From: Plicaturopsis crispa FD-325 SS-3
Lineage: Eukaryota; Basidiomycota; Agaricomycetes; Amylocorticiales; Amylocorticiaceae
Reading direction: 5' to 3'
NCBI GenBank assembly: GCA_000827205.1
Contig: KN832556.1
Span: 1,491,680 to 1,555,679 of the forward strand
DNA: 64,000 nt
Part shown: piece after piece, positions 36,287-41,300 of the stretch
Position numbering within the stretch: position 1 is the first letter of the stretch
How the letters are laid out: each line of letters starts with the position of its first letter
Program-made: the position numbers and the translations under genes
Notes under the pieces: model-generated
What the model was told of the DNA's origin: nothing
Databases searched by the model: none
The model's input: the letters and a program-made list of their open reading frames with translations, nothing else

Positions 36287-36694
36287 CTAAAAGTCGGAAA
36301 CCCTGCCCTTGAAGCTCCAATCACCATCGTCCTGCCCCCAGTTTTTCACAGGCTCTCTCTTTGGTCCCCCTCTTTCACCCGTACGTGGATTCACTTCACC
36401 CTCGAATTCCGGCTCCAGTGGACGGCGTGCGTCGGGATGTAGGGCAAGCTCTGCCTCAGCATCTCCGCGGGATGACGACGAGGCCGTGAGAGGGGCTTGT
36501 GCTGCGCGCTGAAGCTCCTCGAATTCGCGCTGCAGCTCCCGCGGTAGCGCGGGCGGTGCTGGGCGGTTTAAATTGGTAGACATGGTTCGAGAGCGGGACG
36601 TGGGAGGGGCTGTGACGCGCCGTAACGATGCTGTGTTCCGTGTACGAGTACAGGTCAATCGCAACGCGCTGCGGGCGGTATTGAAGGTGTTCAT
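36287..36694 (-). CDS. SDH8: succinate dehydrogenase assembly factor 4 (SDHAF4 / Sdh8)
   Basis: A single exon of 135 residues. The C-terminal EFEGEVNPRTGERGGPKREP followed by VKNWGQDDGDWSFKGRVSDF is the diagnostic DUF1674 block of SDHAF4. The N-terminus is Arg/Ser/Thr-rich with almost no acidic residues (MNTFNTARSALRLTCTRTRN), a typical mitochondrial presequence. The family binds the flavinylated catalytic subunit SdhA in the matrix, shields the FAD from side reactions, and helps it join SdhB. The start codon lies about 300 bp from a hAT-type transposon copy that occupies part of the shared upstream region. Confidence 0.93.
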   Translation of the reverse strand: MNTFNTARSALRLTCTRTRNTASLRRVTAPPTSRSRTMSTNLNRPAPPALPRELQREFEELQRAAQAPLTASSSSRGDAEAELALHPDARRPLEPEFEGEVNPRTGERGGPKREPVKNWGQDDGDWSFKGRVSDF

Positions 36695-37002
36695 GATTTC
36701 ACAAAGCAGTGCTCCAGTTGTGAAATGTAAGTTCCCGGTGGAGACACTTTATGAGAACATACGAGGACGTACCGGGATAGGCAATGACAACGCCTAACAA
36801 CCTTTACCCGTGTCTGTGTGTGTGAGAGGCTTTATGTTTGCCCTGCGGCGCTGTATGTTTCCAGGAAATATTGTCAGAAGATGAAGGTGAGAGTGGTGTG
36901 ATAGGATGTCAAGGTACCCGGAGAACCTTTGCACCGAGTTTTCGGCTACAAAGAGATCGGAGTCTCGGTGAGATCTTGTGCAAGATCTCTGTCTGCTACG
37001 AT
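36695..37002. other. upstream region of SDHAF4 up to the transposon
   Basis: About 300 bp of likely SDHAF4 promoter. Near its right end lies AGATCTTGTGCAAGATCT (36971-36988), two 8-bp arms around TG. It is followed by the left target-site copy GCTACGAT (36995-37002). Confidence 0.5.
36995..37002. repeat. left copy of 8-bp target-site duplication
   Basis: GCTACGAT, matched exactly by 37786-37793 on the other side of the element. Confidence 0.85.
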
Positions 37003-37785
37003 TAGTGCTGCCGCTGATGTGAGGTGAACTCAAGTTGACCTCAACTCAAATCAAGCCCATTACCTTATTGGGCGTCTTGAGGTGCCTCAAGGTGAACCGA
37101 CCTTGAGTTGCATCGCGATTTGATGACCGATTTAGAAAGCTCGAGAAATGTCGCGCGACGCACCATCGCGGGCAGCCTCTGGGCAACCTGAGACCCTATG
37201 GGCTCGAGTGTGGCCTGCCAGTAACACTGCCAGATGTGTAGTGTCATTATAACATGTAGTTCAGCGTTCCAACATCATTTTTTCGCTACGCAAGTTGAAA
37301 GCTACAGGCGCTCCGCTGCCGTCCAAGAGTCAACTTTGTTCTGGACCCCGCGCCACTTCATTCACGCGGGTGGGCGGTCGTCCGACTGAATGCATGACAA
37401 GTGGACAGGACCAGGGCTCCTGTTTTCTCTCACCACGCTAGGGGACATTGAGTGAAGAAAGAATTTTGCCGTCTTACAATTATCAAGACTGGCATTCTAG
37501 CACTAGGTGCTGACTTACGACCGGCCGTCAACGCGTCTAGGCTAAGTGCTGCCATCCCCCGAAAACATTAACAGTGGTGGACGCGGCGAGGGTCAACGGT
37601 ACAATAAGTATGCACCTTGCAAGTGCAAGCAGCGACGCGCAACAACGCGTCACGGCACCCTCTGCCGTCGTTCCCAAAATGGAATGCCATCTCAAGGTGA
37701 ATCAAGTTGGAATCACCTTGAGTTGCTTGAGATGCACAGCCACTTCACCTTGAGCTGATCTCAACTCACATCAGCGGCAGCACTA
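37003..37785. mobile_element. non-autonomous hAT-type DNA transposon (MITE-like), 783 bp
   Basis: The left end at 37003-37023 and the right end at 37765-37785 are perfect 21-bp inverted repeats beginning TAGTGCTGCCGCTGATGTGA. The bases just outside both ends are identical: GCTACGAT at 36995-37002 and at 37786-37793. This is an 8-bp target-site duplication. A TIR starting YARNG (here TAGTG) with an 8-bp duplication is the hAT superfamily rule. The 10-mer CTCAAGGTGA occurs four times near the ends, at 37086-37095 and 37691-37700 forward and at 37713-37722 and 37745-37754 reverse. Such subterminal repeats are a normal hAT transposase-binding feature. No transposase frame lies inside, so it must be moved in trans. 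The perfect duplication and TIRs suggest a fairly recent insertion. Confidence 0.88.
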
Positions 37786-37793
37786 GCTACGAT
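37786..37793. repeat. right copy of 8-bp target-site duplication
   Basis: GCTACGAT, matched exactly by 36995-37002. Confidence 0.85.
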
Positions 37794-38384
37794 GTTTCCT
37801 TATGTTTCCTCGACAATTTGTCGTCGACGCCCAGTCTTTTCGGTGGTCAAATAGTCAAGGAGATGCTGCACAACTGTGCATACGCCTGGACACTGCTGCC
37901 GCGAACTCGTCGTGCCAAAATGGACCCATCCGCGGCTCCGAATGGGATCAATCTTCCACGATTTGACCACCAGGATGCCGCCACAAAATGCGAACTTGCA
38001 GGCAAAATTACATTTTTAAGACCAGTCGTCCCCTGATGCGCTGTAGACTATAGCGCTGCACATCATTTTGCTTCACATAGAAAAAAACCGGGGCAGATAG
38101 GTACCACCAGGCTAACGCCTGATCGAATCCGCAGCACTTGCCACGCGCGAGGAAGCTTTAACGACTAAGCGCGACCATTCGGACAAGTTACTCATTCCGG
38201 ATTTTGTTTGAGCTCTATATATGTTTTCCCAAACGTCCTGTCTCCTGCTCCTACACCGTCACCTTGCTTTTGCGCGTTCTCGTTTTTCTACCGCTTGGTT
38301 TGCTTAACCGTTGTTAATTTTGACTCCGTCGCTCCTAGGGTGCTCCTCGTTCTCCTTTCTACCGCCTGCGCGAGGCGTCTGTCC
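37794..38384. promoter_or_regulatory. upstream region of the large Zn2Cys6 gene
   Basis: About 590 bp between the transposon and the start codon at 38385. A TATATA-containing stretch (CTCTATATATG) at about 38213-38223 lies about 165 bases before the ATG and could be a TATA element. Pyrimidine-rich DNA follows it. The promoter role is inferred from position and composition. Confidence 0.35.
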
Positions 38385-41300
38385 ATGCACGACGCTCACT
38401 CTTTCGGACAAGCGGGAGGAAGTGGTTATTCCACCAATGTTATCGATCTCGGTGGCCCCTCATCCTCGCATGCACCACGCATGATGTCGCGGCGGGCTGC
38501 GGCCCATAATTCCGACGATTCGGGGTCCATGTCGAACAAAAAACGAAAGATGGAGCGTGCGTGTGACGCATGCCGTCGCAAAAAGACCAGATGTGACGGG
38601 CCCAGCAAGCCCGACAACGTCTGCTCGAATTGCGCTCAGCTGCACAAGGATTGCACATATGTGTGCGTGTCTATTTTTTTTTGCCATGTTCCCTATTTTG
38701 CGACAACGACCGAAATGCACGGCTAATATATTATTTTCTCATCGGTCCATGCTTTTCATTAGGGAAGCATCGAAACCGCGAGGACCACCAAAGATGTGAG
38801 TAGCTATATTGCGACTGGTACAAATATAGAGGACGCAGTTCTCACAAGAAGCACCTTTCTCATCAGGTACGTTGTAGGTTTGGAAGACAGGGTTGAGGAG
38901 CTGGAGGCTCTTATTGAGAGGGTGAGTTTGGTCCAATAAACTCTTTTCCATAATACCCAATGGCAAAGGTGGCACCACGATATGACCTCGAGTGGCGTAT
39001 TTGCTTTGGGTCTCCTTTGTCATTCCGCAGAAGACAAAGTATTGGCTTCAAGAACTTCACTGCTCCAATGCTTGACATCGGCTACACCACCCATAGATTG
39101 CAACCGCACATGATCATGTCACTAACACCCCACAACTCTAAACAGCTCTATCCGGGTGCAGATTTCTCAGACGAGCTAGGTCCGCGTGTTATCCGCGACT
39201 CATGGCGAGACGATCATCCCATGCACACAACTATACCGCGCCCTCCGAAAGTCCAGCGGCGTCGCTCTATCTCTACGACTCAGCCCTCGCAGCCTACGAA
39301 TCCTCCGCTTCGACCGCCTCGGTACTCCGTCAGCCTCGCCCCGTTGCGTCCATATCCTTCTGGACGGTTCCCGCCTACAGAGACCATCTCCTCCACCCAT
39401 CTCCTAACACAACCGCCATCCCGTGTTCGCCGCCGGACTCAACGGCAGCCAGATGGCGGTATGGAAGCTGACGGAGAGTCTACCGAGGACAATTCGTCCT
39501 CCGACGTAGACCGGGTTGACACCCTGAACTTGACGAGGGGTCGGAAACATCTGACATATCGTGGTTTGGAATCGGTAGATGATTCATCCGCATCTGCGTC
39601 AGCGGTGGACAGTCAAATGCGCTTCCATGGGAAGAGTAGCCTCTTCGAGCTAATAGGCGAGACGATGAAATTGAAGGAGATGCATCGGTCTTCAGTTCGG
39701 GAGGAGGGTATGAGAGGTAACGATCCACCGCGGAGGAGTCCTTCGCATGCGAATCACCGACGGCCTGAATACTGGACCACCCCACCTGTGCGTAACAAAC
39801 GGCTAATAATTCCCCGAGGCTGACTCATTAGCATGCTGCAGTGGGAACTTGCTTGGGAAGGCTGCGGCCTGCCGTTCAACACCATGCTCCCTTTTCCGCC
39901 GCCAGATCTCGTCCATTCTCTATTCGGACTCTACTTCACCCACACGAACACGCAATTTCCCCTCTTGCACCTCCCGACGTTCGAGCGCCAGTGGCGGGCC
40001 GGCCTGCAGTTCCGGGATCAGTGGTTCGCGTGCCTTGCTTTTACCGTATTCGCGGTAGCGGCGCGGTGGAGCGACGATGAGCGCGTCCTAGATGCTTCGC
40101 TTGTAGACGAGGACGATGATGCGGACTCTACGCACAAGAAATGGTATCGTGCTGGGCGGCAGTGGTATCAGGCGGCGATGGGTAAGCGGTTTTCTCGAGG
40201 AAGACCGTTCATAGTAAATGACACTACCTTATTTATTTCAGATATAACGAGAGCGCATCGCAGCATAGTCTATCCGCCATGTCTGTTTGAAGTTCAGTCC
40301 CTTATTGTGCGCCTGCTCCCCCCTCCATTCACAACCCTTTTCGCTGATTCGAAGACATACAGCTTTTGGGAATGTTCACGCGAAGTACTCTTGCCGGCCA
40401 GTCTGCTTCTTGGATGTTTATCAGCGTCGGCCTCCGGAAAGCGCAAGACGTCGGTGCACACCGCAAGATGATGTACACGAGCACGCCTACAGTTGAGCAA
40501 GAGCTATGGAAACGGGCTTTTTGGCTGCTTGTCGCGTTTGACCGCATAGGCAGCACCATAATAGGCCGACCTTGTTGTGCAGGCGAGGAGGAGTGAGTCA
40601 CAGCCCTCTATCTGGTCACGTCGTGCTTATACTCGGTAACCTGTCGCAGTTTTGATATAGATTTACCGCTTGAAGTCGATGACGATTTTTGGGAAACAGG
40701 CGATCCTGCGACCGACTTTCAACAGCCACCTGGGAAGCCTGCACTCGTGGCCGCCTTCAACATCTGGATACACCTAACACAGATCCAAGCTTTCGTACTG
40801 AAGACAATTGTCCGCACCATTCCATTCGAAAGTCAGTCAATTCAATTATTGAACTCTTCTACTCTCGCAGTATGCATCCGACAAGGCCAAAGTCCTCCTC
40901 ACCTCCGGCGCGCCCAACTGGAGAGCCGAGTTGACTTCACAAATCAACACCGCCCTCAACGATTGGGTCGATACAGTTCCCGCACATTGTGCGTGTTCTT
41001 CCTTTCTATCAATCAAAGCCTGATTGATGAGATTTTGGGTTGGCTAGTGCGTTGGTCCGACAAGATTGAGAACCCTATCTTTGCGAATCAATCCTTCACG
41101 CTGCACACGACATATCACCTGCTACGCATCCTTGTGAACCGGCCCTTCATGGCTTCAACGGTAGCGCACCGGCTAAATCCTCCCAGCTCCTCCATAGATG
41201 CCCTTGACACATGTGCTCAGGCCGCGCAATCGTGTGCACGCATCGTGAAGGCACAACTCCGGCGTGGCGTCTCCAATATACCGAATCTTCTGCGAACATC

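Follow-up and report, generated by a model that had tools for sequence, protein, structure and literature searches.

A 783-bp element between two divergent genes of Plicaturopsis crispa very probably belongs to a low-copy non-autonomous hAT family

For Marasmius oreades, a published account describes the non-autonomous hAT family MarorhAT-4 and its relatives, 597 to 631 bp long and sharing their terminal inverted repeats (TIRs) with a transposase-bearing hAT, together with the 3,396-bp autonomous partner MarorhAT-10 and newly observed insertions (PMC9674265). For maize, a second source gives 903 Ds-related elements in B73 with Ac as their known partner and notes that Ds1 shares little homology with Ac (PMC3260210). 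The hAT transposase Kat1 of Kluyveromyces lactis cuts in a TIR-dependent manner, and repeated subterminal hexamers are proposed to help (PMC4763223). Fungal hAT elements with 7-bp instead of the usual 8-bp duplications are described in a further source (PMC12730594).

We analysed a 64-kb stretch of the Plicaturopsis crispa genome (64,000 nt; hereafter the window), in which a 783-bp element lies between two divergent genes. The features, in window positions, are:

36287..36694, minus strand: neighbour gene with a Pfam match to DUF1674 (PF07896, 5.3e-15); its ATG lies 308 bp from the element
36995..37002, no strand: left target site duplication GCTACGAT, read from the sequence
37003..37785, no strand: element of 783 bp, very probably a non-autonomous hAT, with all stop-to-stop frames at or below 70 codons
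37003..37023, plus strand: left TIR, perfect over 21 nt (90% when the arms are extended to 30 nt)
37003..37132, no strand: left subterminal zone with CTCAAG/CTTGAG/CTCAAC/AGGTGA repeats; outer 115 bp kept between copies
37133..37655, no strand: interior, with neither a long frame nor the tested subterminal motifs, diverging more than the ends
37656..37785, no strand: right subterminal zone with TCACCT/CTTGAG repeats; outer 115 bp kept between copies
37765..37785, minus strand: right TIR, perfect over 21 nt
37786..37793, no strand: right target site duplication GCTACGAT, 8 bp, read from the sequence
38208..38726, plus strand: ORF with a Zn2Cys6 domain, a Pfam match to Zn_clus (PF00172, 1.3e-7)

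A first-pass annotation had described perfect 21-bp inverted repeats, flanked on both sides by the same 8 bp and lying between divergent neighbours; the repeats and flanks proved exact in sequence and position, and the ORFs at 36287–36694 and 38208–38726 carry the DUF1674 and Zn_clus matches, respectively. Among pairs within 10 kb, this is the only one in the window that joins a perfect 14-nt TIR to a perfect 8-bp flanking repeat. Both ends start with TAGTG and conform to the YARNG rule that hAT ends follow. A search of the element for long reading frames returned none, the longest stop-to-stop frame having 70 codons.

The family represented by this element resembles MarorhAT-4 in being a fungal non-autonomous hAT of similar size that has terminal sequence in common with a transposase-bearing hAT; unlike MarorhAT-4, which the published account presents as active and provided with an autonomous partner, it has only a decayed relative as far as known (PMC9674265). 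With maize Ds1 and the Ds-like elements it shares the non-autonomous hAT character and 8-bp duplications, whereas the 903 elements and the known Ac of maize stand against at least nine loci and no intact partner found here (PMC3260210). TIRs and subterminal repeats are present as in the Kat1 system, but Kat1 is domesticated and acts on the MAT locus (PMC4763223). A search of the open-licence literature found no description of the exact family. The window element is a real but ordinary mobile element, the member of a fresh family within the already described fungal non-autonomous hAT elements, and it adds one well-delimited family of this kind for the Plicaturopsis crispa genome.

The genome-wide search for further copies that had been proposed with the first annotation was run on the element's own genome (33,202,659 bases, 49 contigs; all counts are lower bounds) and shows more than a single copy: the element and its relatives are present at nine loci or more. 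The window copy and its duplications correspond to C3:1528674-1529472. The 16 match rows comprise 13 at these nine loci, the window copy counted, and three cross-matches of opposite ends. Both ends are present at six loci, the window copy and those on contigs C19, C5, C3 (C3:1413819), C10 and C13; the three partial or one-ended copies lie on C7 and, near contig ends, on C1 and C8. Perfect 8-bp duplications, each different (GCTACGAT, TGTAGGAG, CTTGAACC, GTAGTATT, GTCGCGAG), flank five of the six two-ended copies, and matching 8-bp flanks were sought at the C13 copy and were absent. Because five of six two-ended copies repeat the ends with different perfect 8-bp duplications, the inverted ends of the window element are not due to chance. 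An inverted repeat that arose by chance or from host sequence, such as a conserved regulatory element in a divergent promoter, would suit a position between two divergent genes, but it is refuted by the five other two-ended and three partial copies elsewhere, four of the five with different perfect 8-bp duplications, and its probability is close to nil.

The closest copy, on C19, differs from the window copy at 35 of 780 aligned sites (4.5%, gaps not counted), and the largest difference among the five aligned two-ended copies, C13 left out, is 24.5%. The suggestion of a recent insertion is not borne out by this distance, and intactness of the 8-bp duplication allows no fine dating. The original label MITE fits loosely: the 783-bp element is short and non-coding and has TIRs and target site duplications, but the many near-uniform copies of a MITE are not seen (at least nine loci, six of them two-ended, up to 24.5% difference), and low-copy non-autonomous hAT is the better name. 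A 16-nt TIR pattern searched with up to two mismatches gave 39 matches versus 52 for its reversed control; therefore, we count its 22 two-mismatch matches as no evidence. Two one-mismatch matches of the same pattern, C3:260939 and C8:197096, were rejected: BLAST matches nothing around them to the element, and inspection by eye suggests that the bases next to them are unrelated.

Assignment to hAT draws on the outermost 12 nt. Across the whole genome the exact sequence TAGTGYTGCCGC occurs at 39 places, compared with 16 for the reversed pattern; 26 of these sites form 13 converging pairs (six of the window family, seven others) and 13 are single. Twelve of the 13 pairs have a perfect 8-bp duplication, including all seven of the others, and inside two of these seven Dimer_Tnp_hAT scores over the cut-off, at C2:1770759 (with one TAG within the match) and at C9:1066355. 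Elements of hAT type with TAGTGTTGCCGC ends lie at C2:1766999-1771352, C2:1820813-1824934 and C9:1065950-1072335, all with perfect 8-bp duplications that differ among the three. With the first as reference, the printed alignments show 100% identity between the transposase 3′ part and the end of the element, over 619 bp in the C9 element and over 467 bp in C2:1820813-1824934, where the identical stretch reaches only the end of the hAT domain. Judged by these sequences, the C2 and C9 elements look recently active despite the one TAG in the C2 domain match. The hAT domains inside the two pairs moved together with the ends and may be either original or acquired.

The hAT reading of the first annotation thus holds on (i) copies elsewhere in the genome, (ii) elements that contain hAT domains and have this 12-nt end together with 8-bp duplications, and (iii) a decayed hAT beside terminal DNA of the family. 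Transposase domains in same-ended elements are found for the 12-nt end (two pairs with Dimer_Tnp_hAT); for the family's own longer end there is only the decayed relic, which has no Pfam match. Together with the 8-bp duplications at five of six two-ended copies, C13 being the exception, and the short TIRs with their YARNG start, this makes it very probable that the window element represents a non-autonomous family of hAT DNA transposons with a low copy number.

Duplications of 8 bp are also made by P, Merlin, Novosib and the KDZ elements, Zisupton among them. On the KDZ and hAT domain matches, membership of the element in one of these superfamilies is very unlikely. KDZ domains (PF18758) are abundant in the genome and one of them separates the C5 copy into its two halves, but by the listed coordinates the 13 TAGTGYTGCCGC pairs contain no other KDZ match, and this one sits in a 19.3-kb insert that splits the C5 copy, leaving no unnested KDZ match inside a pair. 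By contrast, hAT domains occur inside two other TAGTGYTGCCGC pairs. KDZ as partner was rejected on this comparison of coordinates. The KDZ expansion in this genome is sizeable (43 match rows, 42 over the cut-off and 9 over 200 bits, some rows being two pieces of one gene).

One family copy appears to carry a transposase of a different kind. The 3.8-kb copy at C10:1212533-1216371 has the family TIRs, a perfect 8-bp duplication and a 683-aa frame with DDE_3 (PF13358, 3.4e-11), as would be expected if the mover were the Tc1/mariner-like transposase of a DDE_3 family that duplicates 8 bp, and a DDE_3 gene as true partner would have overturned the hAT reading. The empty copy C3:1413819 refutes this: its two sides are 99.3% and 97.8% identical to those of the C10 copy, and it is the same element without the intervening 3.04 kb. 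The extra DNA (about 825–3866 of C10:1212000-1217000) is bounded by 41-bp inverted ends of its own (97.6%) and by a TA duplication, the latter read from the junctions, with one right-flank base differing from the empty copy. The 3.04-kb DNA is thus a Tc1/mariner-like transposon nested in a family copy; the DDE_3 gene was rejected as partner, and DDE_3 as the mover is extremely unlikely. With its 8-bp duplications and a DDE_3 gene that is nested, the window family itself does not belong to Tc1/mariner. The C10 case illustrates that a nested insertion can mimic an autonomous partner. At five DDE_3 paralogue loci, a combined search for TIRs and target site duplications of at least 5 bp found no perfect 8-bp duplication; at two of them (C7, C9), 9-bp flanks with one mismatch merely prolong the inverted repeat. 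Relatives of the C10 DDE_3 protein occur at C7:1235537 (59%, one stop inside) and C5:305160 (56%).

Further insertions interrupt other copies, and such nesting puts several transposon families in time order. The 19.3-kb insert in the C5 copy (C5:892803-912915) has a duplication of ~9 bp, ambiguously GCGCGACGC or GACGCCTGC, with the KDZ match at C5:909576, and the C19 copy is split by a 4.8-kb insert (about 1170–5965 of C19:51400-58000) with a 7–8 bp duplication. Frames of the latter insert, which interrupts the closest relative of the window copy, match none of 12 hAT loci. The C13 copy contains extra DNA of ~1.05 kb and ~0.94 kb. The 0.94-kb piece (about 2184–3120 of C13:907400-911300) is a fold-back with arms 82% identical over 710 bp, ends GGGGGGTCTCAA and GTACACGT on both flanks.

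No intact hAT with the family's own longer ends was found among the matches listed in the genome search. At the end of contig C8, terminal DNA of the family, 87% identical to the window copy over 86 bp, runs on into decayed frames that match other hAT loci (6.8e-28 to C39, 4.4e-26 to C2; e-values from a database of only 12 hAT loci, a genome search also having been run). Frames on the opposite strand give weaker matches, down to 3.5e-11, that mirror the main ones. Six of the relic frames have no Pfam match when searched alone, the profile search does not list Dimer_Tnp_hAT on C8, and the second end of the relic is absent from the contig as far as seen. The final 84 bp of the window element's right zone (37656..37785) also match this relic. 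Between relic and window element, the C1 copy forms a bridge: its end is 88% identical to C8 over 117 bp, and stretches further in match the window element. We found no support for the interior having arisen from a hAT gene through internal deletion, as at most the first 117 bases of the C8 relic match family members. Of 268 frames of at least 30 codons from C13, the C19 insert, C7, C1 and C3:1413819, none matches the 12 hAT loci at 1e-3, and their matches to the C10 locus lie in the element common to both rather than in the DDE_3 frame. The transposase source of the family itself seems either to have decayed, with the relic at the end of C8 as its remnant, or to lie outside the assembly.

Comparison of ends and interiors covered the ten pairs formed by the five two-ended copies other than C13. 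When the window copy is aligned with C3:1413819, the ends agree at 217 of 230 sites (109/115 and 108/115, ~94%) and the interiors at 350 of 508 (68–69%; p 2e-16, by a Fisher's test that treats sites as independent). Corresponding values are 97.4% and 86% for C5 and 98.7% and 94% for C19 (p 0.004); for C3:1413819 versus C10 the difference is not significant (p 0.12). Subterminal motifs number 15 in the two 130-bp ends and zero in the 523-bp middle. In 5000 base shuffles, the shuffled ends contain 0.38 motifs on average and never more than 4. Both the motifs and the 115- and 130-bp zones were chosen after inspection of the sequence; such repeats are a further hAT trait. Ends at ~94% beside interiors at 68–69% in the most diverged two-ended copies fit the expectation for copies that were mobilised anew through their ends over a long period. 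Our reading is that the copies moved in trans repeatedly while selection acted on their ends alone, which would have produced this pattern, and gene conversion or exchange of ends may explain the conserved ends instead. The first-pass annotation had the element moved in trans, and we likewise infer this because it has no long frame of its own (maximum 70 codons) and no intact partner was found among the matches listed.

Under the hAT reading, a hAT transposase supplied by another element would have recognised the window element by its ends and subterminal repeats, bound there, excised it and inserted it at GCTACGAT between the two divergent genes, where 8 bp would have been duplicated. More tentatively, the family may long have been kept mobile purely through its ends while its source survives only as the decayed relic at a contig end, so that it would now be either orphaned or cross-mobilised by the recently-active-looking hAT of the same genome, which shares only the first 12 nt of the TIR with one base changed; we consider this rather doubtful.

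Through the element, the spacer between the two start codons grows from 899 to 1690 bp. The DUF1674 gene is SDHAF4-like, and the zinc-cluster gene likely starts at the in-frame ATG at 38385, 599 bp from the element. A TATATAT noted by eye at 38216–38222, 430 bp past the element, is a possible core promoter for the zinc-cluster gene. From its position, the element might possibly alter expression of the DUF1674 or the zinc-cluster neighbour; an effect on the SDHAF4-like or the zinc-cluster gene would be of importance only once demonstrated.

Target-site duplications of hAT elements follow nTnnnnAn. In the 12 duplications of the TAGTGYTGCCGC pairs, read on both strands, position 3 is T in 17 of 24 readings and position 6 is A in 17 of 24, a small sample in which the pattern is nnTnnAnn rather than nTnnnnAn.
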